In this document: positions 485 through 39,909 of the stretch, piece after piece
Layout of the letters: every line of letters starts with the position of its first letter
Position numbering within the stretch: position 1 is the stretch's first letter
Program-made: the position numbers and the translations under genes
Source: an uncultured Oscillospiraceae bacterium
GTDB taxonomy: Bacteria > Bacillota > Clostridia > Oscillospirales > Acutalibacteraceae
Direction: 5' to 3'
NCBI GenBank assembly: GCA_948471095.1
Contig: CAOKRG010000015.1
Span: 1 to 47,492 of the forward strand
DNA length: 47,492 nt
The notes under the pieces: model-generated
Database searches by the model: none
Told to the model about the DNA's origin: nothing
Seen by the model: only the letters and a program-made list of their open reading frames with translations

Positions 485-665
485 GAGGAAGGGGGAGTGT
501 CCAAAGGACACAGTTTTTGAAGTTTTACGGAGTGGCCTCCGGCGGCTTAGGGACTCCGTCCCTAAGAACCCTGCAACCTTTGTAAAGGTTGACGAAACTT
601 TTACTGTTTCGTTTAGCGAGCCTTTCCATTCAAAAATGCACAAGTGGACACTCCCGAGGAAGGGG
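485..665. mobile_element. MITE-like palindromic element with flanking direct repeats
   Basis: An element of about 161 bp (495-655) begins GAGTGTCC and ends GGACACTCCC (terminal inverted repeats). It is flanked on both sides by the same 10 bases, GAGGAAGGGG (485-494 and 656-665), which looks like a target-site duplication. Inside are the hairpins CTTAGGGAC/GTCCCTAAG (546-554/558-566) and CAACCTTT/AAAGGTTG (574-581/584-591), plus the GGCCTCCGGCGG module shared with other gaps. It encodes no protein and lies between two genes of the oxidoreductase operon. Confidence 0.7.
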
Positions 666-703
666 CCCAGTTCTTCTCCATTATCCCAACACCCAACACA
701 CAT

Positions 704-1513
704 TTAGCTTACTAAAGTATCGCGGCGCAGAAAAGCCAGGACCCGCCGGTTAAAGTCAGGGGCTTCGTCATAGGCGGCGTGGCCCAGCCCCTCATAGAGA
801 TACGCTTCGCAGCCCAGCCTTTCGGCAATCTCCGCCGAGGCCCGGCCCGTGAGCACCTGGTCCTGCTCCCCGCCCAGAACCAAGACGGGGCAGGAAATTT
901 TGTCCAGCTCCGGGTAGCTGTTACAGGTCAGGCAGGCTTGGGCCAGGGCGAGAAACCGCCCGGGGTCCCTGGGCTTTCCCATTCTGGAGAGCAGTGGGAA
1001 CAGCCAGCGGTATTTTTTCACGTAAGGGGCGGAGTACGTCCGCTCCATCATGTCAACGGTCAAAGCGGCCCAGTCCTCCCGCCGGGCCAGCTCCATCCAG
1101 CGCCCCAGAGCCCGCTCCATCGCCTCGTTGGGCCGGGAGGCCGTAACCGCCAGCACCAACTTGCGGACCAAATCGGGGCGGCGGATGGCCAGCTCCTGGG
1201 CGATCATCCCGCCCTGGGACACCCCCAGCACGTCCGCCTGGGAGAGGCCCAGCTGCTCCATGGCCCGGACAATGTCCTCCGCCAAGTCCCGAATCGTGCA
1301 TCCCGCCGGGACAAAGGCCCGCCGGTCAAAGACATACACCGTGTAGTCCTTGGCAAATACCCGGTACATCCAGGCAAGGGGGAAGGCGGCCTCCCACACG
1401 CCTTTCAGGCTCAGCCCCGGGAGCATCACCAGAATATCCGGGCCTGTCCCAAAGCGCACGCCGTCCAGGGTGGAGGGGCCTATATCCAGCCGGAGCTTTT
1501 TCACGGAGGTCAT
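704..1513 (-). CDS. alpha/beta-hydrolase fold protein
   Basis: A 269-residue alpha/beta hydrolase. The nucleophile elbow is GVSQGG (Ser nucleophile in G-x-S-x-G), the acid is probably in GGEQDQVL, and the catalytic His is in GLGHAAYDEAP near the C-terminus. The order nucleophile-acid-His fits the family. The chosen ATG at 1513 overlaps the stop of the alpha-subunit gene as ATGA, so translation is probably coupled; an in-frame ATG further upstream would lie deep inside that gene. No signal peptide, so cytoplasmic. Its position inside an oxidoreductase operon suggests a role with the acyl-CoA or 2-oxoacid pool, for example as a thioesterase or ester hydrolase, but this is inference and the substrate is unknown. 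Confidence 0.85.
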   Translation of the reverse strand: MTSVKKLRLDIGPSTLDGVRFGTGPDILVMLPGLSLKGVWEAAFPLAWMYRVFAKDYTVYVFDRRAFVPAGCTIRDLAEDIVRAMEQLGLSQADVLGVSQGGMIAQELAIRRPDLVRKLVLAVTASRPNEAMERALGRWMELARREDWAALTVDMMERTYSAPYVKKYRWLFPLLSRMGKPRDPGRFLALAQACLTCNSYPELDKISCPVLVLGGEQDQVLTGRASAEIAERLGCEAYLYEGLGHAAYDEAPDFNRRVLAFLRRDTLVS

Positions 1514-2556
1514 ACCAGCTTCTCGATCTCCCCCAGCACCTGGGCCGGGGTGGGGATCATGCCGCCGGTGCGGCCGAAGAAACGGACCGGGACCTTGCAG
1601 TCGATGGCCAGTTTTACGTCGTCCACCATCTGGCCCATGCTCATCTCCACCACCAAGAAGCTTTTGGCACGGCCCGCCGCCTTTTGCAGGATGTCTTTCG
1701 GGAAGGGCCACAGGGTGATGGGACGGATCAGCCCCACTTTCCGCCCCTCTTCCCGGGCTTTGTTCACCGCGGACTTGGCTACCCGGGCCGAGGCCCCATA
1801 GGCTACCACCACAATCTCCGCGTCTTCGCACAGATATTCCTCCGCCCGCTGTTCTTGGGCCTTTACCTGTTCATAGCGCCGGTAGCGCTCTACCACCAGG
1901 TCCTCCAGCTTGTCGGGGGTCAGGTACAGGGAGTTGATGACGTGATGCTCCCGCCTGCCCTGGTGGCCGTCCGCGCACCAGTCCTTCTCCGGCAGCGCCT
2001 TGCCCTCCTCCTCCGGCAGGGAGACCGGTTCCATCATCTGGCCCAGCATTCCGTCCGCCAAAATCATGGCGGGCATGCGCCAGCGGTCCGCCGCGTCAAA
2101 GGCCGTGCCCACCAGGTCCACCATCTCCTGGACCGTGGAAGGGGCGAAGACCAGAATCTGGAAATCTCCGTGGCCGGTGGCCTTGGTGGCCTGCCAGTAG
2201 TCCGCCTGGGAGGGCTGGATGCCGCCCAAGCCCGGGCCGCCCCGCTGCACGTTGATGATCAAGGCGGGCAGGTCGGACCCGGCCATATAGGAAATGCCCT
2301 CCGATTTCAAACTGATGCCCGGAGAGGAGGAGGAGGTCATGGCCCGGACCCCGGCGGCGGAAGCCCCCAGGACCATGTTGACGGCGGCTACCTCGGACTC
2401 CGCCTGCAAGTAGGTTCCGCCTATCTTTGGCATGCGCTTGGACATGTAAGCGGCCAGCTCCGTCTGGGGGGTGATGGGGTAGCCGAAAAAGTGGCGGCAT
2501 CCGGCGCGGATGGCTGCCTCGGCCAGGGCTTCGTTGCCCTTCATCAGTACTTTCAT
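1510..2556 (-). CDS. vorB: 2-oxoacid:ferredoxin oxidoreductase, alpha subunit (VorB/KorA type)
   Basis: A 348-residue alpha (pyrimidine-binding plus transketolase C-terminal-like) subunit. The N-terminus has NEALAEAAIRAGCRHFFGYP followed by ITPQTE, the signature of this subunit, and then EAESEVAAVNMV-like residues that contact the TPP site (seen as QAESEVAAVNMVLGAS). The C-terminal domain carries the VEMSMGQMVDDVK segment typical of VorB. Length is normal for VorB or KorA subunits (about 350). It lies 23 bp after the small ferredoxin gene and overlaps the hydrolase by 4 bases. Which 2-oxoacid is used is not decided by the sequence; the symbol follows the closest family resemblance. Confidence 0.9.
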   Translation of the reverse strand: MKVLMKGNEALAEAAIRAGCRHFFGYPITPQTELAAYMSKRMPKIGGTYLQAESEVAAVNMVLGASAAGVRAMTSSSSPGISLKSEGISYMAGSDLPALIINVQRGGPGLGGIQPSQADYWQATKATGHGDFQILVFAPSTVQEMVDLVGTAFDAADRWRMPAMILADGMLGQMMEPVSLPEEEGKALPEKDWCADGHQGRREHHVINSLYLTPDKLEDLVVERYRRYEQVKAQEQRAEEYLCEDAEIVVVAYGASARVAKSAVNKAREEGRKVGLIRPITLWPFPKDILQKAAGRAKSFLVVEMSMGQMVDDVKLAIDCKVPVRFFGRTGGMIPTPAQVLGEIEKLV

Positions 2557-2579
2557 GGGTATGTATCATCCTTTCGGGG

Positions 2580-2786
2580 TTATTTTTCCACGGTGATGGC
2601 GGAATCCGGACACATGGCGGCGCAGGCGGCGCAGCCCACGCATTGGTCCGGCTGGGCCAGGCGCGCGGGGTGGTAGCCCTTGGCGTTAAGCCGTCCCGTG
2701 TCCAGGGAGATGATGCGCCTGGGGCAGGCATGGGCGCAGAGCCCGCAGCCCTTGCAGACTGCCTCGTCGATGTGGATGGTTGGCAT
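2580..2786 (-). CDS. small 2[4Fe-4S] ferredoxin subunit of the oxidoreductase
   Basis: A 68-residue dicluster ferredoxin (MPTIHIDEAVCKGCGLCAHA at the N-terminus). Two CxxCxxCxxxCP motifs are seen: CKGCGLCAHACP and CVGCAACAAMCP, each able to hold a [4Fe-4S] cluster. It would carry electrons from the TPP-bound intermediate to soluble ferredoxin (delta or VorD/KorD role). The longer in-frame ATG at 2921 is rejected because the chosen ATG has a strong AGGAGGT site about 7 bases upstream and the upstream frame runs through a repeat element. First subunit gene of the alpha-hydrolase-beta operon. Confidence 0.9.
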   Translation of the reverse strand: MPTIHIDEAVCKGCGLCAHACPRRIISLDTGRLNAKGYHPARLAQPDQCVGCAACAAMCPDSAITVEK

Positions 2787-2844
2787 GATGCAGACCTCCT
2801 TGTATATTAATATAAAGTTCTTGGGAATTTCTTTTTGAGTAATA

Positions 2845-3138
2845 GAAGGCCTCCGGCGCAAAGGACGCGCCTGCGGCAAGACCGTGGGACTTCTGACATT
2901 CGCTTCGCGAAGTCGCCCCACACCCTGCCAGGGGCCTAACGCCCCTGGACCGCGAAAAACGCAACAGCAAAAGTTTCGTCCTTCTCGCCTGCTTCAAAGG
3001 TGGCGTGGGAAGAGAGCCAGTAAAAGTTTTTGATCCAAACTTTTTTCAAAAAGTTTGGTCCAGTCCAGGGTGAAACCCTGGCCGCCAGCGGCCACTCCGT
3101 AAAACTTCCATAAAAATGTGCCCTTTGGACACTCTCTC
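2845..3138. repeat. modular intergenic repeat, composite copy
   Basis: This gap holds modules seen elsewhere. AAGGCCTCCGGCGCAAAGG (2846 on) recurs near 15736. A GGGGCCTAACGCCCC hairpin is followed by TGGACCGCG. The near-perfect hairpin CCAAACTTTTT/AAAAAGTTTGG (about 3035-3058) recurs inverted near 26921-26942. A CCAGGG/CCCTGG hairpin follows, and GGACACTC at 3131-3138 resembles the terminal repeat of the MITE-like copies. No left terminal repeat was found, so this copy may be rearranged. Confidence 0.7.
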
Positions 3139-3141
3139 AAA

Positions 3142-3834
3142 CTATAACGCGTAACGCGGCGCGGCCTGGGCCTCTTCCTCCCAGGCAAAGCGCACATAGT
3201 GCCGTACCTTCTTGAACCCCTCCGGCAGGGGCTCCGGCGCGGCGAAATCCGGGACCGTGCTGTACAGCAGGGGCAGGCCCAGCAGCTCCGCCGTGCGCCG
3301 CCCAAAGGAAGCGGCCTCCCGTATATCCTCCCAGGCGGTCTCCACCCCCAGGTGGGAGTTGTTCACCACCGCGGAGGCCCGCAGGCGGCAGGCGGCTTCA
3401 ATCTCCCCCAGCAGGCCTGCCGCTTCCTCCGGGGTTTGGGTTAGGGCGCGGAAGCGGTTGACCACATAAAGCATCTGATACCCGGCCCGGTCCAGCCGGG
3501 GGGAAAGCCCGCCCAAGGCGGTGGCCCCCGCGTCGTCGCCGCCCGCGTCCACAAAGACACGGCCCGCCTGGGGGGAAAGGATGGAGTAGATTTCCGGGGG
3601 CAGCGTGGGCGTATCCAAGGTGGTGCCCGCGAACACCGGCGCAATCACCCGAACCCCGCTTTTTTCCAGCAGGCCCCGGTACTCGCAGGAGCGGAAATAG
3701 GGGTTGACCACATCCAGGTCCGCCAAAGTGACCGGCCCACCGGCGGCGGCAGCCTCCAGGGCCAGGTTGAGGGTAAGGTTGGTCTTGCCGCAGCCATAAT
3801 GGCCGCAGACGATGGTGACGGCGGGGCTCCGCAT
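3142..3834 (-). CDS. ParA/MinD-like P-loop ATPase
   Basis: A 230-residue SIMIBI-class nucleotide-binding protein. Residues 11-19 are GHYGCGKTN, a Walker A/P-loop, and LADLDVVNPYFRS follows at the place where deviant-Walker NTPases carry the A' aspartate; FVDAGGDDAGATAL is the likely Walker B region. No DNA-binding domain is visible. The ATG at 3834 is chosen over the one at 3870 because a GGAGGAGAT site lies 7 bases upstream. ATPases like this often neighbour VorB/KorA operons in Clostridia (established context, from memory), where they may aid cofactor or cluster assembly; the exact role is unknown. Separated from the ferredoxin by a 355-bp repeat-bearing gap. Confidence 0.8.
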   Translation of the reverse strand: MRSPAVTIVCGHYGCGKTNLTLNLALEAAAAGGPVTLADLDVVNPYFRSCEYRGLLEKSGVRVIAPVFAGTTLDTPTLPPEIYSILSPQAGRVFVDAGGDDAGATALGGLSPRLDRAGYQMLYVVNRFRALTQTPEEAAGLLGEIEAACRLRASAVVNNSHLGVETAWEDIREAASFGRRTAELLGLPLLYSTVPDFAAPEPLPEGFKKVRHYVRFAWEEEAQAAPRYAL

Positions 3835-4002
3835 AGGCGATCTCCTCCTGGAATTGAGGGTTTGTATCAATAGGACGCCCCTCTTTTCGGCAAATACTGG
3901 CAGCGTACTTAAAGTTCCTGCGTCCTCACTCCTTACTCCCGGCTGAATTTACTGGAAGCCATGGGCGCATATTCAATCGCTGCAGGACGGGCAGGCAGCT
4001 TT

Positions 4003-4031
4003 ATTTTAGCACAATTTCTCCTCCAATTCAA
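4003..4031 (-). promoter_or_regulatory. sigma-A-type promoter for the ATPase/oxidoreductase operon
   Basis: On the minus strand TTGAAT (-35), a 17-base spacer and TAAAAT (-10), with an extended TGTGC just before the -10. It lies about 170 bases upstream of the ATPase gene start. Confidence 0.6.
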
Positions 4032-4040
4032 CAGGAAATA

Positions 4041-4218
4041 CCAGTGAGGAAGTGTCCAAACGCATCTTTTGTATGGAGAAATCTCCCTGAGCGCAACAGT
4101 AAAAGTTTCGTCCACCTTTTCAAAGGTGGTAGGGTTCTTAGGGACAACGTCCCTAAGCCGCCGGAGGCCTTTTAATACTCCACACAACAACGCTCTTCGG
4201 ACACTCCCTCCCAGTGAG
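4041..4218. mobile_element. MITE-like palindromic element, second copy with direct repeats
   Basis: The direct repeat CCAGTGAG occurs at 4041-4048 and again at 4211-4218. The 162 bp between them begin GAAGTGTCC and end with GGACACTCCCTC, so terminal inverted repeats match those of the 485-665 copy, and the lengths agree (161 and 162 bp). Internal hairpins are CCACCTTT/AAAGGTGG and CTTAGGGAC/GTCCCTAAG, followed by CCGCCGGAGGCC. The internal order is inverted relative to the first copy. No coding capacity. Confidence 0.7.
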
Positions 4219-4264
4219 TGCCCAAGAGAGACTTTTTGCTCCACTCTCCGCATCCCCCAAATAG

Positions 4265-4298
4265 GAGCCCGCCTGCGCGTTGGGGCGCAGGCGGGCTC
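4265..4298. terminator. strong GC hairpin, probable terminator
   Basis: Perfect 14-bp stem GAGCCCGCCTGCGC/GCGCAGGCGGGCTC directly after the stop of the small membrane-protein gene. The T-rich side (TTGCTTTTATTTTC) is on the plus strand; on the minus strand the tail is weak, so it may act in both directions. Confidence 0.6.
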
Positions 4299-4304
4299 TT
4301 GCTT

Positions 4305-4655
4305 TTATTTTCTTCTTTCCGATTTGTTCCAGATAAGCGCTGCGGCCCCCATGGAGAGCAGGCCTACCGCCAGATACCCGGCGGCATAGAATAGAAAGTC
4401 CATCTCCAAAAAGTCCACAAACAGCCATGCCCCGCACAGGTACAGCGCCGCCGCCCCTATGGGGAACCACCAGCGGGCCCGCACGTCCCAACCGGCGAAA
4501 ATGCCGGTTGCCAGCAGGCAGAGCGGGTCCACGATGAAAAACAGCGGAATGATAGCCGCCATATAGGCCTGGGGCGGAAGCAGCAGAGTCAGCGCGGGCA
4601 GGAGCAGCATGACCGCCCCCACGCCGAGCAGCCAGGCAACGCCGGTTTTTTTCAT
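4305..4655 (-). CDS. small four-helix membrane protein
   Basis: A 116-residue hydrophobic protein I do not recognise. Four membrane segments are predicted by eye: about 7-27, 31-53, 62-85 and 88-108, with a Lys/Arg-rich C-terminal tail (NKSERRK), so the tail is probably cytoplasmic. No lipobox or catalytic motif is visible. It has a GGAGGG site before the ATG and follows serS by 34 bp on the same strand, so the two are probably cotranscribed; a strong hairpin follows the stop. Function unknown. Confidence 0.8.
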   Translation of the reverse strand: MKKTGVAWLLGVGAVMLLLPALTLLLPPQAYMAAIIPLFFIVDPLCLLATGIFAGWDVRARWWFPIGAAALYLCGAWLFVDFLEMDFLFYAAGYLAVGLLSMGAAALIWNKSERRK

Positions 4656-4689
4656 AAGGCTTCCCTCCTATCCCTGCCTGTACAGCGCC

Positions 4690-5967
4690 TTAGCCGATGG
4701 CTTCCTTGCCGCCCATATACATGCGCAGGGCCTGGGGAATCTTTACCGTGCCGTCCGCCTGCAGGTTGTTTTCCAAAAAGGCGATGAGCATCCGGGGCGG
4801 GGCCACCACGGTGTTGTTCAGGGTGTGGGGGAAGTAGTTGCCCTCTGGGTGCTTCACCCGGATGCCCAGCCGCCGGGCCTGGGCGTCGCCCATATTGGAG
4901 CAGCTGCACACCTCGAAATATTTCTTCTGGCGGGGGGACCAGGCTTCCAGGTCCACGGACTTTACCTTCAAATCCGCCAGGTCGCCGGAGCAGCATTCCA
5001 GGGTCCGCACGGGAATGTCCAGGGACCGGAAGAACTCCACCGAGTAGCTCCACATCTTATGGTACCAGTCCATGCTGTCCTCGGGCTTGCAGACCACGAT
5101 CATCTCCTGCTTTTCAAACTGGTGGATGCGGTACACGCCCCGCTCCTCGATTCCGTGGGCGCCCACCTCCTTGCGGAAGCAGGGGGAATAGCTGGTCATG
5201 GTCTGGGGCAGCTGGTCCTCGGTGAGGAGGTTCCCGGCGAACTTGCCGATCATGGAGTGTTCGCTGGTTCCGATGAGGTACAGGTCCTCCCCCTCGATCT
5301 TGTACATCATATTCTCCATCTCCGCGAAGCTCATGACGCCGGTAACCACGTCGCTGCGGATCATAAAGGGCGGGATGCAGTAGGTGAAGCCTTTATCAAT
5401 CATGAAATCCCGGGCAAAAGCCAAGATAGCTTCGTGAAGCCGGGCAATGTCGCCCATCAGATAGTAAAAGCCGTTGCCACTGGTGCGCCGGGCGCTGTCC
5501 AGGTCGATGCCATGAAGGCGCTCCATAATGTCCGTGTGGTAGGGCACTTCAAAGTCCGGCACAACCGGCTCGCCAAAGCGCTCCAGCTCCACGTTCTCGC
5601 TGTCGTCCCGGCCAATGGGGACGGAGGCGTCGATGATGTTGGGAATGACCATCATGCGCTTTTTGATCTCCTCGGTCATCTCCGCCTCTTTGCGCTCCAT
5701 CTCCTCCAGCTCCCCGGCGATGGCGGCTACCTTCCGCTTTACTTCCTCGGCTTCCTGCTTTTTGCCGGCCTTCATCAAGCCGCCTATCTCCTTGCTGATG
5801 GCGTTGCGCTGCTGGCGCAGCTCGTCCCCCCGGGCCTTGCTGGCCCGGAACTGGCCGTCCAGCTCCAGCACCTCGTCCACCAAGGGCAGCTTTTCCTCTT
5901 GGAATTTCTTCTTGATATTCTCCTTAACCAGCTCCGGGTTGGTCCTGACCAGCTTAATATCCAGCAT
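4690..5967 (-). CDS. serS: seryl-tRNA synthetase
   Basis: A 425-residue class II synthetase that charges tRNA-Ser (and tRNA-Sec). The N-terminal 110 residues form the long antiparallel coiled coil (MLDIKLVRTNPELVKENIKK and the RASKARGDELRQQRNAISKE segment). Then come the catalytic motifs: TSEHSMIGKFAGN, motif 2 with FRKEVGAHG and RIHQFEKQEM, and CSCSNMGDAQARR. Motif 3 reads NNTVVAPPRMLIAFLENN instead of the common NGSGLAVGRTLVAILEN; the class-defining Arg is kept, so this belongs to a divergent SerRS clade. Start ATG at 5967 has an AAAGGAGG site. A repeat hairpin lies about 30 bases upstream, within the leader. Confidence 0.95.
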   Translation of the reverse strand: MLDIKLVRTNPELVKENIKKKFQEEKLPLVDEVLELDGQFRASKARGDELRQQRNAISKEIGGLMKAGKKQEAEEVKRKVAAIAGELEEMERKEAEMTEEIKKRMMVIPNIIDASVPIGRDDSENVELERFGEPVVPDFEVPYHTDIMERLHGIDLDSARRTSGNGFYYLMGDIARLHEAILAFARDFMIDKGFTYCIPPFMIRSDVVTGVMSFAEMENMMYKIEGEDLYLIGTSEHSMIGKFAGNLLTEDQLPQTMTSYSPCFRKEVGAHGIEERGVYRIHQFEKQEMIVVCKPEDSMDWYHKMWSYSVEFFRSLDIPVRTLECCSGDLADLKVKSVDLEAWSPRQKKYFEVCSCSNMGDAQARRLGIRVKHPEGNYFPHTLNNTVVAPPRMLIAFLENNLQADGTVKIPQALRMYMGGKEAIG

Positions 5968-5986
5968 TTCGTTTCCTCCTTTATTT

Positions 5987-6438
5987 GCCTCCGGCGGCTT
6001 AGGAAACTTTTTGAAAAAAGTTTCCTAAGGACCTTCAAAAATCTTTACACGTTTTGGTAGAGTAGGATGCGCAAGCTTTGCGCTCGGTTTGGGGCTCACA
6101 ACGTTCACTTCGTGAAGTTGACGTTCACTTCGTGAAGTTGACGTTCACTTCGCGAAGTTGACGTTCATTTCGCGAAGTTGACGTTCTCTTCGCAAAGTCG
6201 ACATTTACTTTTGACTGACTCGGCAAGCGAGAAGGACAAAGCTTTTGCTGGCTTGCTGCCCAACCCATTTCACTTTGTCAGCGCAATTCAGATACCTAAA
6301 ATAATCGCGCGGTCTGATCGAGCAGAAACCCCCAAATAACGTAACAGTAAAAGTTTCGTCAACCTTTTCAAAGGTTGCAGGGTTCTTAGGGACGACTTGG
6401 CGAAGCCAACGTCATGAGTCCCTAAGCTGCCAGCGGCA
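5987..6438. repeat. large composite palindromic repeat upstream of serS
   Basis: Begins GCCTCCGGCGG and ends with a degenerate inverted copy (CTGCCAGCGGC near 6428). Contains the perfect 15-bp hairpin CTTAGGAAACTTTTT/AAAAAGTTTCCTAAG (5998-6012/6015-6029), the GCGCTCGGTTTGGGG end module, five 20-bp tandem units and then a stretch (about 6210-6345: CTTTTGCTGGCTTGCTGCCC, TTTGTCAGCGCAATT, TCTGATCGAGC) that recurs in inverted orientation near 26960-27090 and 28755-28880. No gene is seen here. Confidence 0.8.
6101..6200. repeat. five tandem 20-bp palindromic units
   Basis: Units start at 6101, 6121, 6141, 6161 and 6181. The consensus is ACGTTCACTTCGTGAAGTTG; the stem ACTTC/GAAGT is kept in units 1-3, while the loop changes from GT to GC; units 4 and 5 carry single stem changes. 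Single units of the same kind are found inserted in other repeats (for example near 2910 and 21358). Confidence 0.9.
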
Positions 6439-6455
6439 AAGTCGCGGCTTTGCCT

Positions 6456-7304
6456 CTACTCTTTCAGCTTCAAGTCGCTCAACAAATTCTGCAAATCCTC
6501 TTCTCCGTAAAACTCGATTTGCAGAACGCCCTTTTTCTTGGTGCCAGCCACTTTTACCTTGCGGCCTAGGTAATCGCTTACCGCCAGCTGGGCCTCGGAG
6601 TAAAACTGGTTGGCGGGGGTAGATCGAGGGGCCTCCCGTTTTTGGGCCTCCCCCGATTTTTTGGCCAGAGCCTCCAGCTCCCGCACGGAAGCCCCCTCCC
6701 TGGCCTTTTGGGCCGCGGCCCGCATATCGTCCTCATTTTTGAAGCTTAGAAGCGTCCGGGCATGGCCCGCGCTGATCTCTCCCCGCTCCACCATCTGCTG
6801 GATGTCCTCCGGCAGATTCAGCAGCCGCAGGGCGTTGGCCACCGCCGGGCGGGATTTTCCCACGGCGCTGGCAGCCTCCTCCTGGGTAAAGCCCTGGCTG
6901 TCAATGAGCTGCTGATAGCCTTTCGCCTCTTCCAAGGGGCTCAAGTCCTCCCGCTGTAGGTTCTCGATCAGGGCGAAGAGCATCTCTTCCCCATCGGTCA
7001 TCTCCCGCACCACTGCCGGGACCTCCGACAAACCGGCCATGCGGGCCGCCCGCCAGCGCCGCTCACCGGCCACGATCCGGTAGCCGCCGCTGAGCATGGG
7101 CCGCAGCAGCAATGGCTGCAGCACGCCGTGCTGGGCGATGGATTCCGCCAGCTCCGACAGGGCTCCGCTCTCAAATTCCTTTCTAGGCTGGTCCCGGTTG
7201 GGCTCGATCTCGCTGACCCGGATGGTCACCGCGCCCTCGCCGCCCTCGCCGGCGTTCTCCGCGAAGATGGCGTCCAAGCCCTTGCCCAGCCCTCTCTTTT
7301 TCAT
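6456..7304 (-). CDS. parB: chromosome-partitioning protein ParB (Spo0J)
   Basis: A 282-residue CTP-dependent DNA clamp that loads at parS and spreads, working with Soj/ParA and recruiting SMC. Seen: the N-terminal MKKRGLGKGLDAIF peptide that stimulates ParA, the box IEPNRDQPRKEF, the CTP-binding motif GERRWRAA (about 80-87), then the HTH region (FTQEEAASAVGKSRPAVANALRLLNLP) and a C-terminal dimerisation domain. An ATG two codons upstream (7310) is only 3 bases from the AAGGAA site; the one at 7304 has 9 bases and matches the usual start of the family. It lies 27 bp after soj in one operon. Confidence 0.93.
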   Translation of the reverse strand: MKKRGLGKGLDAIFAENAGEGGEGAVTIRVSEIEPNRDQPRKEFESGALSELAESIAQHGVLQPLLLRPMLSGGYRIVAGERRWRAARMAGLSEVPAVVREMTDGEEMLFALIENLQREDLSPLEEAKGYQQLIDSQGFTQEEAASAVGKSRPAVANALRLLNLPEDIQQMVERGEISAGHARTLLSFKNEDDMRAAAQKAREGASVRELEALAKKSGEAQKREAPRSTPANQFYSEAQLAVSDYLGRKVKVAGTKKKGVLQIEFYGEEDLQNLLSDLKLKE

Positions 7305-7331
7305 GCTCATCGCTTCCTTTCCCGCGCGGGA

Positions 7332-8105
7332 TCACGCGTTGCTTTTTAGCAGCTCCTCCGCCAGCTCCCGGTAGGCCCGGGCCCCTTTGGAGCTCTTATC
7401 GTAATACATCACCGGCTGGCCGAAGCCCGGTGCCTCGGAAAGCCGGACCGCCCGGGGCACCACGGTCTTGAAGACCTTGCGGGGAAAGTACTTTTTCACT
7501 TCCTCCACCACCTGCTGGGTCAGGTTCAGCCGGCCGTCGTACATGGTCAGCAGCACCCCTTCCAGGTCCAGCATACCGTTATACTGCCGCTTCACCCGGC
7601 GTATGGTGTTCATCAGCTGGGAGAGCCCTTCCAGGGCGTAATACTCGCACTGGATGGGAATCAGAATCGTATCCGCCGCGTTTAAGGAGTTGGTGGTAAT
7701 CAGCCCCAAGGAGGGCGGGCAGTCGATGAAGATGTACTCATAGCTGCCCCGCACGGCGGCCAGGGGCTCCTTGAGGCGCTCCTCCCGGCGCTCCACTCCG
7801 GCCAGCTCGATTTCCGCCGCCGCCATGTCGATGCTGGCGGGCAGCAGGTCCAGGTTTTGAAATTCCGTGTGCACAATGGCCTCGCTGGCCTTTGCCCCGC
7901 CGATGACCACCTGGTACATGGTCACCGGGCATTTTCTCCGGTCCACGCCCACCCCGCTGGTGCTGTTCCCCTGGGGGTCCGCGTCGGCCAGCAGCACCTT
8001 ATGGCCCATGCTTCCCAGCTCAGCGGCCAGGTTCACGGCGGTAGTGGTCTTTCCCACTCCGCCCTTCTGGTTAGCAATGGCAATAATTTTACCCAAGCCT
8101 ATCAC
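7332..8105 (-). CDS. soj: chromosome-partitioning ATPase Soj/ParA
   Basis: A 257-residue ParA ATPase. The deviant Walker A is NQKGGVGKTTTAVNLA (KGGVGKTT at 13-20, with the signature Lys), DADPQGNSTSGVG is the A' region, and IDCPPSLGLITTNSL is Walker B. It binds DNA non-specifically as an ATP dimer and is cycled by ParB; in Firmicutes the monomer/dimer state also controls DnaA. Starts with GTG at 8105 (an ATG two bases upstream runs straight into TGA). A promoter and a parS-like site lie about 310-375 bases upstream, and a hairpin repeat lies in the leader. Confidence 0.93.
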   Translation of the reverse strand: MIGLGKIIAIANQKGGVGKTTTAVNLAAELGSMGHKVLLADADPQGNSTSGVGVDRRKCPVTMYQVVIGGAKASEAIVHTEFQNLDLLPASIDMAAAEIELAGVERREERLKEPLAAVRGSYEYIFIDCPPSLGLITTNSLNAADTILIPIQCEYYALEGLSQLMNTIRRVKRQYNGMLDLEGVLLTMYDGRLNLTQQVVEEVKKYFPRKVFKTVVPRAVRLSEAPGFGQPVMYYDKSSKGARAYRELAEELLKSNA

Positions 8106-8154
8106 ATTCTCTCTTATTCTGACTTTTTTGCTTTCTTCCAGGGCAGCTTCGCCC

Positions 8155-8260
8155 CCGGCAGCTTAAGAAACTTCTTGAAAGAAGTTTCTTAAGAATCTTC
8201 AAGAACTTTTACACGTTTGACGGGGGTGTGAGGCGCAGGCTTTCCGCTCGGTTTGGGACG
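8155..8260. repeat. repeat module with perfect 13-bp hairpin in the soj leader
   Basis: CTTAAGAAACTTC (8162-8174) and GAAGTTTCTTAAG (8181-8193) form a perfect stem with loop TTGAAA, followed by the ACTTTTACACGTTT and TTTCCGCTCGGTTTGGG modules. The rest of the 8106-8414 gap shows no gene. Confidence 0.85.
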
Positions 8261-8443: not shown

Positions 8444-8465
8444 GCCCCTAGATGTTGTTGTCTCG

Positions 8466-34289: not shown

Positions 34290-34300
34290 GCCACTCCATT

Positions 34301-34338
34301 AAAAAAGGGATAGAGCCGAAAGCTCTATCCCTTTTTTA
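34301..34338 (+). terminator. gyrA terminator
   Basis: Stem GGGATAGAGC/GCTCTATCCC (34307-34316/34322-34331), loop CGAAA, then TTTTTTA; the A-run before it makes it bidirectional. Confidence 0.9.
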
Positions 34339-34374
34339 TAAATTAGCTTACTCAGTGTGTGTTTACTCGCGATT

Positions 34375-34770
34375 TTATTACTTCTGCGCTAACCGATAGG
34401 AAAAGCAGGTCGGGACTGCGTCCCGAAGGGGCCTACGGCCCAGAAAGTACGGTTAAGGAGTCTCGCCTGCCGGCTCGGTCGGCGCTGTACGGTCGCCACT
34501 GGCGACCAGCGCCCTCCGGCGGCTTAGGGGCTTTGGGTCTCGGCTACCGCCTCGGTCGGTTCGCGGCATGTCTGCCGCTGGCAGACGCTCACCCCCTAAG
34601 AACCCTACCAGGGGCCTAACGCCCCTGGACCGCGTAATTTTTCCTACCATTTGAGTCTGAGGTAATATCAAGAACAGAGTTCATTGAGCGCAACAGTAAA
34701 AGTTTTGTCCACTTTTTCAAAAGTGGTGGGGGTGGAGGGGGCAAAGCCCCCTCCCCGCCGGAGGCTACTC
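34375..34770. repeat. composite repeat with nested palindromic inserts
   Basis: GTCGGGACTGCGTCCCGAAG, GGGGCCTACGGCCC, then TCTCGCCTGCCGGCTCGG with the palindrome GGTCGCC/GGCGACC, CCTCCGGCGGCTTAGGGG, a second nested module (GGGTCTCGGCTACC to GACGCTCACCCC, 34535-34593) in the loop of TTAGGGG/CCCCTAA, a GGGGCCTAACGCCCC hairpin with TGGACCGCG, and lastly the CCACTTTTT/AAAAGTGG and GAGGGGGC/GCCCCCTC hairpins with CCGCCGGAGGC. Confidence 0.8.
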
Positions 34771-34801
34771 CGTAGTACTTTATTATAGTTCCAGACCAGC
34801 C

Positions 34802-35413
34802 TCAGCCCGCTGGCTGTCCGCTGACAATAGCCTCCAGGTCCGGCAGCTCCCCGGCGTGGCCATAGTAGGTCTGGCACAGGAAGGAGGCCTGTGCCCGGTA
34901 ATATTCCATCTTTTCCTGAGCCGCGGCCAGCCAGCCGTCGTCATCCTCGCCATGGGAGTCCTCAATCTTTTCCAATTCGCTCTCCAAGCTTGCCTCCCAG
35001 CCGGACTGCTTCTCTTCCAGCTGGGCCAGGGCCCCGGCGTCCAGGTCGTGGAAGGAGGCCGGATACAGCTGATTGATGATTTTCTCCCAGCTCTTCTGGG
35101 CGTCTTTATAGGCGGCAAAAATTTGGGAGTAGGAGGCCGCCGCTCTCAGGTCATCCGAGAGGGCCTTGTCCACAGGGTTTTCCTGGAAGAGGGCCTCAAA
35201 GTCCCCGGCCGGGCTGGCCGCGGCGGTAGGCTCCGCCGTGGGAGAGGCTTCCGGGGAAGCGGCGGGCTCCGGGGTGGGAGTGGGCGCGGATGTGGCAGTA
35301 GGCTCGGACGCCGCCACAGAGGACCAGCTTTCCGCCGGGTCCTTTTCGCAGCCCGGGAGCAGGCAGAGCGCCAGCAGCGCCAAAGCGGCGAGAATGGCAA
35401 TTTTTTGTTTCAT
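34802..35413 (-). CDS. putative lipoprotein with Pro/Thr linker
   Basis: A 203-residue exported lipoprotein: signal peptide MKQKIAILAALALLALCLLP with lipobox LPGC (Cys22). A Pro/Thr/Ala-rich spacer follows (about 36-70, with TPTPEP and ASPTAEPT), then a helical domain with DAQKSWEKIINQLYP and LEEKQSGWEASLESELEK, loosely like the LprI/DUF1311 pattern of conserved Trp. No catalytic motif. Ten bases downstream of the NUDIX gene on the same strand, so cotranscribed. Function unknown; the LprI resemblance is weak. Confidence 0.75.
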   Translation of the reverse strand: MKQKIAILAALALLALCLLPGCEKDPAESWSSVAASEPTATSAPTPTPEPAASPEASPTAEPTAAASPAGDFEALFQENPVDKALSDDLRAAASYSQIFAAYKDAQKSWEKIINQLYPASFHDLDAGALAQLEEKQSGWEASLESELEKIEDSHGEDDDGWLAAAQEKMEYYRAQASFLCQTYYGHAGELPDLEAIVSGQPAG

Positions 35414-35423
35414 GGTTACCTCC

Positions 35424-35972
35424 TTAGAGCAGGCCTTTGTTGACCAAAGCGGCGGTCTTTAAAATGCCGATCTGGGTTTTCGCGTCGGGGATCTCGTTGC
35501 TGCACACCATCTCCACGGCCTTGTCCAGGGGGATGCGCTCCGGGGCCAGGAACTCGTCCTCGTCCAGGTGGAGCTGGCGCTTGTCCTCCGCCACACGGCA
35601 GGCCCACAGGCGGATGACCTCCCCGCAGTAGCCCCCGGTGGGGTAGACCTCGCCCAGGGAGACATAGCGTTCCCCCGTGGTGCCGGTCTCTTCCAGCTGC
35701 TCCCGCTTCATGGCTTCAAAGGGGTCCTCCCCGGGCTCCAGCTTTCCGGCGGGCAGCTCCAGCAGGACCTTGTGGTAGGGGTAGCGGAACTGGCGCACAA
35801 AAATCAGCTCGTTGGCCTCGGTCAAAGCCGCCACGCTGACCCCGCCGGGATGCTCCACCACCTCCCGCTTGGCGGTGGAGCCATTGGGCAGCTCCACATC
35901 GTCCACATGCACGCGGATGATCCGGCCCGTATAAATCGTCTCCTGATTGAGCGTCTTCTCAAAAAAATCCAT
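35424..35972 (-). CDS. NUDIX hydrolase, ADP-ribose pyrophosphatase type
   Basis: A 182-residue NUDIX enzyme. The box is G-KLEPG-E-DPFEAMK-REQLEETGTT, with all invariant Gly, Glu and Arg residues (GX5EX7REUXEEXG); U is Gln, an unusual polar residue. ELPAGKLEPGE before the box and LGEVYPTGGYCGE after it mark the ADP-ribose pyrophosphatase (NudF) group, where the PSPG/PTGG residues lie. It would hydrolyse ADP-ribose or related sugars to AMP. The repeat hairpin at 36003 lies in its leader. Confidence 0.9.
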   Translation of the reverse strand: MDFFEKTLNQETIYTGRIIRVHVDDVELPNGSTAKREVVEHPGGVSVAALTEANELIFVRQFRYPYHKVLLELPAGKLEPGEDPFEAMKREQLEETGTTGERYVSLGEVYPTGGYCGEVIRLWACRVAEDKRQLHLDEDEFLAPERIPLDKAVEMVCSNEIPDAKTQIGILKTAALVNKGLL

Positions 35973-36002
35973 GAAAAATTTTCCTTTCTAACAAAACTAA
36001 AT

Positions 36003-36288
36003 GCCTCCGGCGGCTTAGAAAACTTTTTGAAAAAAGTTTTCTAAGAACTTTCAAAAACTTTTACGCTGTGACGGGGGGGTGGAAGGAGGACGCTGGGTGC
36101 TCATTTTGTGGCTTGCTCCTTCCGCTGCCTAAGTCAACCCTTCCGGCAGCTTCTGCCCTGCGTGTTATCCGGGTTTCCTCCTATCACCAACTCAGCGACT
36201 GGAAGGAGCGCCCTGCGGATTTGCCTGCGGGGGCACCCCGCCGACTGGAAGGAGCGATCCGCGAAGTGGGTGCAGCGTCACGCTGCCG
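36003..36288. repeat. repeat hairpin and non-coding gap before the NUDIX gene
   Basis: GCCTCCGGCGG (36003-36013) and the stem CTTAGAAAACTTTTT/AAAAAGTTTTCTAAG (36014-36028/36031-36045), then AACTTTTACGCTGTG. Farther on, CGACTGGAAGGAGCG occurs twice (36196-36210 and 36242-36256), 46 bases apart. No gene is seen. Confidence 0.75.
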
Positions 36289-37569
36289 TTATTCCAAATT
36301 GTTCATTACTAGGCCGGTTAGGAGTTTGGGGTAAAAATAGGTGGATTTCTGGGGCATCTTCTCCCCGGCCTGAGCCACGGCGCCGATCTCCTCCACCCGA
36401 GTGGGGTTTAGCAGGAAGCAGCACTGGCTCTCCCCCTGGGCTACGGAGTCTTCCGCCTCCTGGGCGGACCGGGTGTAGGTCAGGTTTACCTGGTTGGCCA
36501 TGTTCTCCTTGTCAATGCCCAGCAGGCGCTCTAAAACCAGCGTGTGCAGAATGGTCACGTCCAGGCCCCGGTAGGCGGGGCTTTTTTCCGGCAGCAGGGA
36601 GGAAAGGTCCTCGCCCGGCCGCAGGGTGAGCAGGGCCCGGCGGGTGCCGTCAAAATAGGCGAAGGCGTGCCTGCCCTCCTGGTAGGCGGCGTCCAGCGCG
36701 GCTTGGGCGGCGGCGGGGCCCTCCAAGGCCTCCACCGCAAAGGCGGTTTCGCAGGCCCGCAGCAGGGCTTCCCCGTCAAACTGGGCCAGGCCCCGCACCA
36801 GCCGGTGGGTGGGGAACACCACCAGGCCCGGGTCGTCCATGGCGGCCAGGAACATCATCACATAGTCCGCGCCGGGGCAGAATGCGCCGGCCTCGCGCAG
36901 ATGGCGCTGAAAGTTCAGGGCGGTCTCATAGCGGTGGTGGCCGTCGGCGATGTAGAGCTTGCGGGCGGCGAAATCCTCCTGGATGGCGGCGATGGCCTCG
37001 GGGTCGTTGACCACCCATAGGCGGTGGGTCACCAGGCCGTCGGAGAAGTCATAGCGGGGGGCGCAGCCGGAGGCCAGATTATCCAGCCTTTGGCGGGTGG
37101 ACTGGGCCTCGTCCTGATAGAGGCAGTAGATTTGGCTGAAATTGCAGTGGGTGGCCCCCATCAGCTGGAAGCGGTCCTCCTTGGCCTTGCTGAGGGTCTC
37201 CTCGTGGGGCAGCACCACGCCGGCGGAGAAGTCCTCCAGCCGCACCCGGGCGATGAGGCCCCGAAGCTTTTTGACCTCTCCCCGGTCCACTTGGGAGAGA
37301 AATTCCATTTCATAGACGTACAGGCCCGGGTCCATGTCCATTTTCAAAACGCCGGATTCCAGCCAGGCCTCCAGGGCCTTTCGGGCCTCCTGATAGGGCT
37401 CCTGGCCCTTGGGCAGCTCCAGGCGGATGATGTTGTGGGGGTTGCGCTGTAAATAGTCCTGCCGCTGGGCTTCGGAGACGACGTCGTAAGGGGGGGAAGT
37501 CAGGTCCTCGATTTTTCCCGCCTTGGTTAAATCATACCGCAGGGCGCGGAAGGGTTGGATGTCGGCCAT
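36289..37569 (-). CDS. DUF1015 family protein
   Basis: A 426-residue cytosolic protein of the DUF1015 family: MADIQPFRALRYDLTKAGKI, SPPYDVVSEAQRQDY, NPHNIIRLELPKG, and IADGHHRYETALNF in the middle, which is its most conserved block. The family role is not known for certain. The ATG at 37569 has AGGAGG 7 bases upstream; the longer frame start at 37644 lacks a site. It is a minus-strand gene in the right arm, transcribed against replication. Confidence 0.88.
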   Translation of the reverse strand: MADIQPFRALRYDLTKAGKIEDLTSPPYDVVSEAQRQDYLQRNPHNIIRLELPKGQEPYQEARKALEAWLESGVLKMDMDPGLYVYEMEFLSQVDRGEVKKLRGLIARVRLEDFSAGVVLPHEETLSKAKEDRFQLMGATHCNFSQIYCLYQDEAQSTRQRLDNLASGCAPRYDFSDGLVTHRLWVVNDPEAIAAIQEDFAARKLYIADGHHRYETALNFQRHLREAGAFCPGADYVMMFLAAMDDPGLVVFPTHRLVRGLAQFDGEALLRACETAFAVEALEGPAAAQAALDAAYQEGRHAFAYFDGTRRALLTLRPGEDLSSLLPEKSPAYRGLDVTILHTLVLERLLGIDKENMANQVNLTYTRSAQEAEDSVAQGESQCCFLLNPTRVEEIGAVAQAGEKMPQKSTYFYPKLLTGLVMNNLE

Positions 37570-37708
37570 AGTGTTTCCTCCTAAAGGTTTACGGGAATTC
37601 TTTGCAAGGTATATTGTAAACGCAATCGCCTTCCGCGTCAACAAGAATCACCGGGTCTTCACGTAATATTCACAAATGGGGGGTATACTGGGGCATATAT
37701 GGGCAAGA

Positions 37709-37980
37709 ACTACCACCCAGCTAATGGTAGCCAATACGCGGTCAAGGGGCGTTAGGCCCCTTGCGGATTCTTAAGGCAGAGCCTTAAGCCGCCGGAGGCC
37801 AAAACGTACTTACCAGGGCCGTAGGGGTCTCGCCTGCCGGCTCGGTTGAGTTGGCGAAGCCAACTCATGTTCGCAGCTTGGTCTGCTGTACTTGGCTTTG
37901 CCAAGTACCCGGCAGACGCTCACCCCTCTTCGGGACGACTTGGCGAAGCCAACGTCATAAGTCCCGGCCCAAGCGTCATT
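37709..37980. repeat. 272-bp composite repeat, inverted partner of 31354-31625
   Basis: Reverse complement of 31354-31625 at more than 90 percent by eye. From left: CTAATGGTAGCC, AATACGCGGTCAAGGGGC, CCTTAAGCCGCCGGAGGCC, GTAGGGGTCTCGCCTGCC, palindromes GAGTTGG/CCAACTC and TACTTGGC/GCCAAGTA, GGCAGACGCTCACCCC, and TCGTCCCG-like end with GTCCCGGCCCAAGC. Confidence 0.9.
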
Positions 37981-38050
37981 GTTGTTTGCCTGGCTGAGCG
38001 ATTATGAATACAGCTACAAAAAAGAAAGCGCGAAGCTCCGGCGGGAACAC

Positions 38051-38079
38051 TTGACAAACGCCCTGGATTTTGCCATACT
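38051..38079 (+). promoter_or_regulatory. promoter for the ABC exporter operon
   Basis: TTGACA (38051-38056), 17-base spacer, CATACT; alternatively TACTAT with a 19-base spacer. The first 12 bases, TTGACAAACGCC, recur at the tRNA promoter (44729). Confidence 0.6.
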
Positions 38080-38159
38080 ATAAGGAAGCGGCTTTTATAG
38101 AGGCGGCTCTATGCAATTTTTTAAATAGATATCGTTTCAAAATAGGAGGAATCACGGAA

Positions 38160-39116
38160 ATGGTAGAAGTCAGGAACCTGACCAAGCGCTACGGCGCCAA
38201 CCTGGCGGTGGACCAAGTCAGCTTCACCATAGAGGAAGGCTCTATCGTGGGCTTTCTGGGGCCCAACGGCGCGGGCAAGTCCACCACCATGAACATCATC
38301 ACCGGCTATCTCTCGGCCAGCGAGGGCAGCGTGACGGTTTCCGGCAAGAACACCCTGGACGAGCCCAACGAGGTGAAAAAGCTCATCGGGTACCTGCCGG
38401 AGCAGCCCCCCCTGTATCTGGACATGACCGTCAAGGAGTATCTGGACTTTGTCTATGATCTCAAAAAGGCCGGCCAGCCGAAAAAGCAGCACATCGAGGA
38501 GATCTGCCAGCTGGTGAAGATCGATAACGTGTACGGGCGGCTCATTGGCAACCTTTCCAAGGGCTACAAGCAGCGGGTGGGCATTGCCCAGGCCCTCATC
38601 GGCAACCCGCCGGTCCTCATTCTGGACGAGCCCACCGTGGGCCTGGACCCCAAGCAGATCATTGAGATCCGCACCCTGATCAAGAACCTGGGACGCAACC
38701 ACACGGTGATTCTCAGCTCCCACATTCTGCCTGAGGTGCAGGCGGTGTGCGAGCGCATCATCGTCATCAACAACGGCAGGTTGGTGGCGGACGGTGCCAC
38801 GGACACCCTGGCCCACGACCTCTCCCAGGACCACCGGCTCATCCTCCGGGCGGAAGGGCCGGAGCGGGAGATGCTCCACGCCATGGAGGCCCTGGAAAAG
38901 GTGAAGGAGGTCCACTCCCTGGGCGAAAAAGAGCCGGGGGCCTATGAGTTCAGCGTGGAGACCCAGCCGGACCAGGACGTGCGGCGGGACCTGTTCGCCC
39001 TGATGGTCCGCAACGGCTGGCCTATGCTGGCCCTGAAAAATACCGACCTGACGCTGGAGGACCTGTTCCTGCAGCTGACCAGCTCGGACGCCGCCGCGGC
39101 GGGGAAAGGGGAATAA
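38160..39116 (+). CDS. ABC transporter ATP-binding protein (GldA/CcmA-like)
   Basis: A 318-residue ATPase of the ABC-2 exporter class. Walker A is GPNGAGKST, signature NLSKGYKQRVGIAQAL, Walker B PVLILDEPTVGLDP, followed by the D-loop and an H-loop in LSSHILPE. A C-terminal regulatory extension of about 80 residues ends in LEDLFLQLTSSDAAA. The ATG at 38160 has TAGGAGGA before it; an upstream frame start at 38070 lies in the promoter region. First gene of the Gld-type operon. Confidence 0.92.
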   Translation: MVEVRNLTKRYGANLAVDQVSFTIEEGSIVGFLGPNGAGKSTTMNIITGYLSASEGSVTVSGKNTLDEPNEVKKLIGYLPEQPPLYLDMTVKEYLDFVYDLKKAGQPKKQHIEEICQLVKIDNVYGRLIGNLSKGYKQRVGIAQALIGNPPVLILDEPTVGLDPKQIIEIRTLIKNLGRNHTVILSSHILPEVQAVCERIIVINNGRLVADGATDTLAHDLSQDHRLILRAEGPEREMLHAMEALEKVKEVHSLGEKEPGAYEFSVETQPDQDVRRDLFALMVRNGWPMLALKNTDLTLEDLFLQLTSSDAAAAGKGE

Positions 39117-39122
39117 CGGATT

Positions 39123-39830
39123 ATGAACGCGATTTTCAAGCGGGAGCTGCGCTCCTATTTCAGCTCGCCCATCGGATATGTGTGCATCGCCATTTTGGCG
39201 GCGCTTTACGGGTTCTTTTACTTCATGGTGATGGCCTACGGCTCTTCCAGCTACATTCCCAGCGTGGTGTATAACACCATGTTCAGCTTTTCCATGCTGG
39301 TCATTCCCATCATCACCATGCGCAGCATGACCGACGACCAAAAGAACAAGACGGACCAGATTCTGCTTACCGCCCCGGTGGGCGTGACGGCCATCGTGCT
39401 GGGCAAATTTTTGGCCTGCTTCGTGGTCTTCTTTGGGGCCAGCACCTTCGGCCTGCTGCCCGCCGTGGCCATGAGCGCCTTTTCCAGCCCCAGCTGGGGG
39501 GAGGTTTTGGGCAACTACATCGGCACTTTGCTCTATGGCGGGGCTATGATCTCCATCGGGGTGTTCATTTCCAGTCTGACGGTAAGCCAGATCATCGCGG
39601 CCATCGGGACTTTCGCGGTGTCGGTGCTCTTGATGTTCATCGACAACCTGGCCTCCTCCATCAACAACGCGGCGGCCGCGGCGGTGGTGGACTGGATCTC
39701 CTTTAGCAACCGGTACAATGTGTTCACCCGGGGCCTGTTCAGCGTACCCAGCCTGGTGTTTTTCTTAAGCGTGATGGCCGTGTTCATCTTCCTGACGGCC
39801 CGCCGCCTGGAAAGCCGCCGCTGGAGCTAA
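39123..39830 (+). CDS. ABC-2 type permease (GldF-like)
   Basis: A 235-residue membrane protein with six helices. The start MNAIFKRELRSYFSSPIGYV is the GldF signature; helices about 16-40, 52-72, 96-120, 135-160, 165-190 and 210-232. It forms the pore with the ATPase, six bases upstream. Usual length for the family (about 240). Substrate unknown. Confidence 0.9.
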   Translation: MNAIFKRELRSYFSSPIGYVCIAILAALYGFFYFMVMAYGSSSYIPSVVYNTMFSFSMLVIPIITMRSMTDDQKNKTDQILLTAPVGVTAIVLGKFLACFVVFFGASTFGLLPAVAMSAFSSPSWGEVLGNYIGTLLYGGAMISIGVFISSLTVSQIIAAIGTFAVSVLLMFIDNLASSINNAAAAAVVDWISFSNRYNVFTRGLFSVPSLVFFLSVMAVFIFLTARRLESRRWS

Positions 39831-39877
39831 ACCGCGGCAAGGAAAACCCACAGGCGCAGTAAAAGTCTTTGGAGATT

Positions 39878-39909
39878 CTTAAGAACCTTTCTTCAGAAAG
39901 GTTCTTAAG
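39878..39909. repeat. perfect 15-bp hairpin of the repeat family
   Basis: CTTAAGAACCTTTCT/AGAAAGGTTCTTAAG with a TC loop, in the 298-bp gap between permease and GldG-like genes. The rest of the gap (39910-40128) holds an upstream frame extension with no ribosome site. Confidence 0.85.

Follow-up and report, generated by a model that had tools for sequence, protein, structure and literature searches.

Intergenic repeats of an uncultured Oscillospiraceae bacterium: a MITE family, an order-wide two-hairpin core with mirror tracts, and nested palindromes

Introduction

Several described systems resemble the repeats treated here, which occupy the intergenic gaps of a 47.5-kb stretch of DNA (the window, meaning the whole stretch analysed) from an uncultured Oscillospiraceae bacterium; comparison is with the accessible parts of the sources cited. 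Prokaryotic miniature inverted-repeat transposable elements (MITEs) are likewise short, non-autonomous and present in many copies, with inverted-repeat ends and target duplications (PMC10969869), whereas the repeats of the window share, among differently ended elements, a core that occurs across the order, and carry nested palindromes and mirror tracts. Repetitive extragenic palindromic (REP) sequences, bacterial interspersed mosaic elements (BIMEs) and REPINs, which go with REP-associated tyrosine transposases (RAYT), are also intergenic palindromic mosaics of many copies (PMC2817692, PMC3116915, PMC3733652), but here there are inverted-repeat ends and target duplications, and no linked RAYT was seen.

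The potential intrastrand triplex (PIT) elements, among them TMECO, have stem, complement and third tract together on a single strand and are dispersed in many copies (Holder et al. 2015, PMC4666352). As reported there, TMECO is proteobacterial, with a 9-nt G/C-rich stem and a single sequence pattern, whereas the present repeats have two hairpins in series, tracts of 3-6 nt, variable sequence and three-way compensatory change, and occur in Clostridia related to Acutalibacter. The repetitive hairpin elements (RHE) of sponge mitochondria are small hairpins, some of them composite, which fill intergenic gaps in the same way; they are organellar, and no mirror tracts or target duplications are described in the accessible part of that report (PMC2800124).

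The repeats of the window consist of three layers, namely a MITE family, a two-hairpin core, and nested palindromic units of 20 and ~57 nt. In our reading they are selfish repeats of MITE type, with a core that is under selection for its fold as DNA, perhaps a triple-stranded one. In line with the preliminary description, which had thought that the system could be undescribed, no description of this repeat family was found in the literature searched, whose coverage takes in few of the subscription journals.

Results and discussion

Contig C15, which carries the window, belongs to a draft genome of 2.52 Mb (G000; 83 contigs, 86.6% complete), and this genome was compared with a genus sample of 29 genomes and an order sample of 394 genomes from 168 genera. 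Gap borders were taken from the list of open reading frames (ORFs) and from protein family matches, and a sequence counted as recurring if at least two places contained it in a 400-kb sample drawn separately from G000. All 17 gaps of more than 150 bp between 0.38 and 40.0 kb contained dispersed repeats recurring in that sample. Recurring sequence covered 4,922 of the 7,884 bp in gaps, that is, most of the longer intergenic sequence, as against 77 of the 32,116 bp elsewhere in positions 1-40,000, where gaps below 150 bp are included. The modules had been placed in these gaps and outside genes by the preliminary description; the first placement is far above chance, and the second is true to within those 77 bp.

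The 15-mer module GCCTCCGGCGGCTTA had 174 exact copies in the draft genome, 91 forward and 83 reverse, and its reversed control had none. The repeats are thus genome-wide rather than confined to the window, and they occur in both orientations, as had been supposed. The supposed free shuffling of modules did not survive: the repeats are modular, but most modules belong to a small set of composite elements whose internal order is fixed, with small nested palindromes in addition.

When all CCTCCGGCGG sites in the window and the 400-kb sample were listed, recurring ends, GGGAGYGTCCAAA, emerged, and these define family A. Forty elements were collected (37 in G000, one in G001 and two in G005) by GGGAGYGTCCAAA-like ends with at most four mismatches over both ends together, an internal motif and length limits of 100-460; they measured 123-444 bp, short as in MITEs. 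Target duplications of 7-11 bp were above threshold in 22 of the 40 (eleven of 8 bp, seven of 9, two of 10, one of 7 and one of 11), compared with a mean of 0.63 and a maximum of 5 of 40 when the right flanks were shuffled 2,000 times. A complete copy at 493-655 on the forward strand (485-663 with its flanks) has the ends GGGAGTGTCC and GGACACTCCC, an 8-bp target duplication GAGGAAGG at 485-492 and 656-663, and a single-strand DNA fold with z -5.2. Another, at 4048-4208 on the reverse strand (4039-4217 with its flanks), has a 9-bp duplication TACCAGTGA/TCCCAGTGA matching at 8 of 9 positions, and a core at 4100-4159. These ends and duplications show that family A has been moved by transposition, as the preliminary description had suggested for the repeats. 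They also imply a transposase acting in trans, which we infer to be of the DDE type.

A further family-A MITE at 25224-25410 (reverse strand) has both ends and no detected target duplication; its core, at 25277-25333, lies just upstream of recF. Within 1.5 kb of recF, no core match was found in any of 25 genus-mates (L100-L124), suggesting that this insertion is not ancestral to the genus. Among 48 longer loci of named genomes that were scanned, eight had core matches, including one of Acutalibacter sp. 1XD8-33 (L009) with five.

Family B is defined by a second end, AGAACCTGTATTCA. Facing AGAACCTGTATTCA pairs exactly 162 bp apart recur in four species (G000, G011, G014 and G016), as judged by spacing only, and longer family-B versions in G000 contain the core. 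One 162-bp copy (L139, from 2730) showed no core in the part read.

The unlinked transposase of the preliminary description was borne out in so far as the ends and duplications imply a trans-acting enzyme, but no partner gene appeared in the three families searched. Neither the Y1_Tnp search (26 genomes), nor that for IS256 (5 genomes, ends inspected), nor that for IS1595 (29 genomes) gave a partner transposase with the family ends, and no facing pair of exact ends A or B 0.8-3 kb apart was noticed by eye in the 29 genus genomes. In viral contigs two patterns had no match, and for two others, with 4 and 42 exact matches, the context was in no case the right one; one query each of plasmids and of phages gave no match.

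The Y1 search also bears on a REP-like system, in which the hairpins would be recognised single-stranded by an HUH (Y1) transposase, as REP sequences are by RAYT. That the repeats are palindromic, intergenic and of high copy number is consistent with it, and a Y1_Tnp match was found in three of the six genomes searched among the eight that have the core 15-mer (G000, G001, weakly, and G011). Against it, Y1_Tnp was absent from G005, G006 and G015, and the G000 match looks IS200-like, at a locus without the three core patterns searched and with one imperfect family-A end only. To our knowledge, HUH elements make no target duplications, unlike family A, and a REP-like system seems to us quite improbable. 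By eye, the IS200-like match (contig C4, ~84.6 kb) lies downstream of an Rpn-like gene.

The second layer is a core of two successive hairpins, H1 and H2, each followed by a third tract. In the MITE at 493-655 it occupies 544-603 on the forward strand (81.3 bits): H1 (546-566) is followed by CCCT at 569-572, which mirrors GGGA at 550-553, and H2 (574-591) by GAAA at 594-597, which mirrors CTTT at 578-581. The core 15-mer was found in 8 of 40 genomes searched, all of the same genus and including its own. A DNA search of the order sample gave a core match in seven genomes, namely its own, three of the genus, one of another genus in the same family (G254) and two of two other families (G138 and G390); in the genomes of other genera the architecture was the same and the stems were different. 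A covariance model built from 27 aligned cores had matches in 91 of the 394 genomes, 49 of the 168 genera and 11 families, a breadth that is to be discounted for matches belonging to the training set and for single weak matches, which may be chance. At least 13 matches were found in each of 25 genomes. At E ≤ 0.001 there were 73 in 447 kb of the genome itself, 12 of them in the 47.5 kb of the window (around oriC) and 61 in the 400-kb sample, so that cores are denser in the window.

In 60 distinct matches from this and other genera, an alignment which was fitted to the model and is therefore biased towards it, 94.2% of stem cells were paired (75.6% when shuffled), changes on both sides were seen in 14 of 16 stem pairs, and only 6 of ~825 paired cells were G-U or U-G. 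A free alignment of the 27 cores gave 94.7% paired against 81.6% shuffled, with double changes in 11 of the 16 pairs. The two-hairpin core is thus order-wide and shows compensatory change. The scarcity of wobble pairs fits a DNA hairpin better than an RNA one, and selection would then act on the DNA fold rather than on an RNA fold. In other genera (L294, L295, L299, L308 and others) a further hairpin, of CGC..TGCG..GCG type, often directly precedes H1, and GCC-TCC-GGC in the genome of the window may be a remnant of it.

The third tracts follow the stems by a rule. H2 has the form 5'-C-[pyrimidine tract]-GA... with the tail 5'-C-[purine tract]-C-TTTT, in which the purine tract complements the tract of the left arm base for base, both read 5' to 3', and is thereby the mirror image of the right arm. 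A run-length pattern (T run of 3-6, complementary stem, A run of 2-7, then C and a T run) gave equal T and A runs in 110 of 111 records: 47 of (3,3), 47 of (4,4), 15 of (5,5), one of (6,6) and, as the exception, one of (3,4). Over whole H2 tracts 67 of 81 records had an exact mirror (mean of 9.3 and maximum of 19 when shuffled), and of 43 asymmetric tracts, 34 matched the mirror and none a direct copy of the right arm. Exact mirror matches were seen for thirteen tract types, among them CTTT/GAAA, TTTT/AAAA, CTTTT/GAAAA, TTCTT/AAGAA, TTTCT/AAAGA, TTTCTT/AAAGAA, TTTTCT/AAAAGA, CTTC/GAAG and CTTTC/GAAAG.

Hairpins were also collected by a following CTTTT with no pyrimidine tract demanded. At length 4 the mirror was perfect in 55 of 120 (shuffled 13.1, maximum 21) and a copy of the right arm in 30 of 120 (shuffled 10.6, maximum 19), the latter score being due to the many symmetric tracts; at length 6 a single record in 110 was perfect, by mirror or copy alike. 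H1 obeys the same rule with the purines on the left (GGGA then CCCT, GAGG then CTCC, GAGA then CTCT): at length 4, 49 of 82 records were perfect (shuffled 24.3, maximum 35), and in the 33 informative records, in which mirror and copy differ, 16 were mirror (shuffled 5.3, maximum 10) and none copy.

The same rules were then applied to 40 regions fetched later. These hold other copies mostly from genomes with one copy already seen, and so are new copies and not new genomes. Their places were chosen as matches to the model, which holds the commonest tail letters; the mirror rule is not among the model's base pairs, and the set therefore does test it. Eleven genomes supplied 18 distinct H2 records, of which 14 were exact (in 5,000 shuffles, mean 4.6 and maximum 11), or 13 of 16 when two non-core-like records were left out (L322, scored a match, and the second row of L334, scored a miss). 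Of 15 asymmetric H2 tracts, 11 were mirror and none copy, and H1 was perfect in 16 of 20 (shuffled maximum 14). These results establish the mirror rule. Two simpler descriptions of the tail were dropped: a single-base change, as the whole tract follows the stem, and a copy of the right arm, which fails for asymmetric tracts (0/43 for H2, 0/33 at H1, 0/15 in the test set).

These counts also bear on an ordinary MITE infestation, in which the hairpins would be kept only because the elements were copied recently from a small number of masters, and the mirror tracts would be an accident of subfamily ancestry. The family-A ends and target duplications agree with it, as does the close relationship of many copies within the genome. 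The thirteen H2 tract types with exact mirror matches do not, though these counts are not tree-aware; nor do families f1, f13 and f26, each of which has n=3 and n=4 forms with matching tail, or the failure of asymmetric tracts ever to match the direct copy. On balance such an infestation alone is an unlikely account.

Polymerase copying, slippage, gene conversion and base pairing yield direct or inverted repeats, not mirror repeats. By established triplex chemistry, the third strand runs parallel to the purine strand if it consists of pyrimidines (C+·G-C, T·A-T) and antiparallel if it consists of purines (G·G-C, A·A-T). An intrastrand triplex therefore needs just such a mirror tract next to its hairpin, and in H1, H2 and the test set the third tract mirrors the like strand of the stem, as the PIT motif requires. 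The fold of the core is perhaps three-stranded. One tentative proposal, drawn from sequence comparison and given somewhat less than even weight by us, is that in these DNA repeats, dispersed across the order, H1, H2 and their third tracts evolve together, base by base, as intrastrand triplexes. If true, this would give direct evidence, from evolution, for the formation and selection of short DNA triplexes in living bacteria and for their carriage by MITEs. Triplex formation by DNA in the cell is still an open question, and stems and third tracts changing together over many genera would turn it into one of comparative genetics, with the variants of the tract as naturally occurring compensatory mutants.

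The explanation that we favour, and regard as somewhat probable, is that the repeats are non-autonomous mobile elements in which an old two-hairpin core is kept as a DNA fold, possibly a triplex. At least one family is a MITE, and the enzyme that moved it would be a trans-acting transposase of DDE type, duplicating ~8-9 bp of target. The core is an old module within more than one kind of element (with ends A, with ends B or with no recognised ends), amplified in many genera and kept as a structure, both sides of stem pairs changing and the left-strand base, its Watson-Crick partner and the tract base changing together, as observed. This three-way match may be kept because each hairpin, once extruded from intergenic DNA that is supercoiled or single-stranded, is folded by the DNA strand into a short intrastrand triplex. 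H1 would then have C+·G-C/T·A-T triads on one strand and H2 G·G-C/A·A-T triads, with the motifs swapped on the other strand. The hairpins also take in 20-nt and ~57-nt palindromes, giving nested mosaics. The most likely beneficiary is the element itself, which may be recognised or replicated in its folded form, and between genes it would be tolerated by the host.

Several observations count against this explanation. No clear duplication was detected in 18 of the 40 family-A elements, and a transposase with end A was not found in the Y1, IS256 and IS1595 families, in a draft genome that is incomplete. L009 has core matches near its own recF, possibly at the same sites. In the core, the number of pair types was not above that of shuffles (reached in 223 of 500, and in 382 of 500 on the free alignment). 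The mirror rule is broken by 14 of the 81 H2 records, some of which are not true cores, L194 being a real exception; it is looser at H1 (49/82 perfect), and in the test set the informative H1 records were 6 of 8 mirror and 0 copy, with a shuffled maximum also of 6. As to the triplex, 59 of the 67 exact H2 tracts are only 3-5 nt long and 8 are 6, whereas the published bacterial search used stems of 6-15 nt; its authors report that stable triplexes were not supported by their in vivo data (Holder et al. 2015, PMC4666352). With tracts of only 3-6 nt, triplex stability is doubtful.

The core might instead be a structured RNA (a riboregulator, or a processing or termination site), with the mirror tract as an RNA triple (U·A-U) or A-minor contact. 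Two conserved hairpins with covariation would suit this, and on the strand opposite to the model H2 and its upstream tract would form a legal U·A-U/C+·G-C triple; RNA-type triads would, though, put H1 and H2 on opposite strands. A terminator scan gave 39 matches in positions 1-20000 (shuffled 25.5, standard deviation (sd) 5.7), an excess which was not repeated in 20001-40000 (25 matches; shuffled 25.1, sd 5.0). Three terminator-like matches, each a small hairpin followed by a T run, lie inside family-A ends (497-511, 3118-3132 and 25392-25406), and such ends may act as terminators. None of the 11 stronger cores of the window overlapped a terminator-like match, so that the core does not look like a terminator; a weak core match at 8767-8830 overlapped one. 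Orientations are nearly equal in the genome (91/83) and show no clear bias to the flanking genes in the window, where 6 cores lie with them and 4 against (10 of the 12 cores, one in a convergent gap and one weak overlapping match being excluded). G-U pairs are almost nil, and an Rfam scan of the window matched a single tRNA, with no repeat above the gathering cut-off. The RNA-processing or terminator role suggested by the preliminary description is thus not upheld for the core, and a structured RNA appears distinctly unlikely.

The third layer is the nesting of small palindromes in hairpins. Among 31 listed copies of the CTTAGGG..CCCTAAG hairpin the loop was of 7 nt in 14, 5 nt in 2, 26-28, 48 or 61-64 nt in 14 and 142 nt in one, and CCAGG-, CAAGGGG- and TCGGGAC-hairpins had similarly enlarged loops. 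Two units make up the inserts, one a palindrome of 20 nt and the other ~57 nt long. The 20-nt unit had 40 matches in 30 arrays, one of which (L134) is probably chance; 15 of the 30 arrays lay between complementary arms of at least 6 bp, compared with 4-5% of positions shifted or picked at random. Of the ~57-nt units, 10 of 31 did so, against 1.5% in the null. By the same test half of the 20-nt arrays and two thirds of the ~57-nt units lie outside such arms. With 9-nt arms, which proved too strict, a search for empty and filled hairpins gave 15 filled ones, where the controls gave 6 and 2. G014 has 52 matches to the 15-mer of the 57-nt unit and none to that of the core, showing that this unit is separate from the core. 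At L160, on contig C87 of G014 (~18.5-18.7 kb), four ~57-nt units stand in a tandem row with a period of 53 nt. The nested hairpins would be a bacterial parallel to mitochondrial hairpin elements, further examples of like kind reportedly being fungal double-hairpin elements and yeast GC clusters.

Other features of the window

The window carries genes of the replication origin (oriC), namely mnmG, rsmG, parA/parB-like, jag, yidC, dnaA, recF, gyrB and gyrA, with dnaN at ~23.9-24.97 kb as assigned from the ORF list and its place. By RecF comparison the closest named genomes are those of Acutalibacter and similar Clostridia, at 68-72% identity.

Two cores follow dnaA in its gap, at 23392-23451 on the forward strand and at 23766-23825 on the reverse (86.6 bits). 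Three are associated with a GGAGGGGGC hairpin: that at 8732-8791 (within 8697-8802, reverse strand), which also has a GCTCGGTTTGGGG end, that at 10293-10352, in a composite at 10263-10400 (forward), and that at 34697-34756 (reverse). Core matches were further found at 3021-3085 (reverse, 26.8 bits), in which the tract CTTTTT is mirrored by CAAAAAC, at 6348-6428 (reverse), with a 20-nt palindrome inserted in the H1 tip, and at 28699-28755 (forward, 33.1 bits). An element at 26887-26960 (forward) combines a CCTCCGGCGG box, an H2 of n=5 type and a mirrored AAAAA tract.

Elements of a type called C include one at 8145-8260 (forward) with a long T/A hairpin at ~8162-8193, a mirrored tract and a GCTCGGTTTGGG end, one at 8505-8590 (forward) with a reduced hairpin, and one at 27130-27236 (reverse) in which a TTCTT tract is mirrored by AAGAA. 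Another lies upstream of gyrB (29066-29162, reverse), another runs up to a GCAGCGTCACGCTGC palindrome (36000-36285, forward), and at 39861-39910 (reverse) there is a type-C hairpin with a tail tract (family D4).

Nested or repeated units are seen at 6100-6210 (forward), a tandem array of ~5 copies of the 20-nt unit after GGGGCTCAC; at 21310-21420 (forward), a composite in which GGGACTCAT and GTCCC enclose two nested 20-nt units; and at 28586-28690 (forward), where a ~57-nt unit in the tip of a GGAGGGG hairpin itself carries a nested TACTTGGC..GCCAAGTA palindrome. Of family-B type are a piece at 15714-15881 (forward), which has a CCAGGTGCC hairpin and terminates in TGAATACAGGTTCTA, and a composite at 34411-34650 (forward) with two ~57-nt units, one of them inside the tip of CTTAGGGG..CCCCTAAG.

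A 240-bp composite of family-B type at 31357-31596 (forward) has a 98% identical inverted copy at 37735-37974 (reverse). The two bracket a 6.1-kb segment with gyrA and are a possible substrate for inversion. Finally, two 114-nt direct copies, 90% identical, at 44876-45103 stand immediately before a tRNA-Arg gene and include its 5' part, which looks like a partial tandem duplication.

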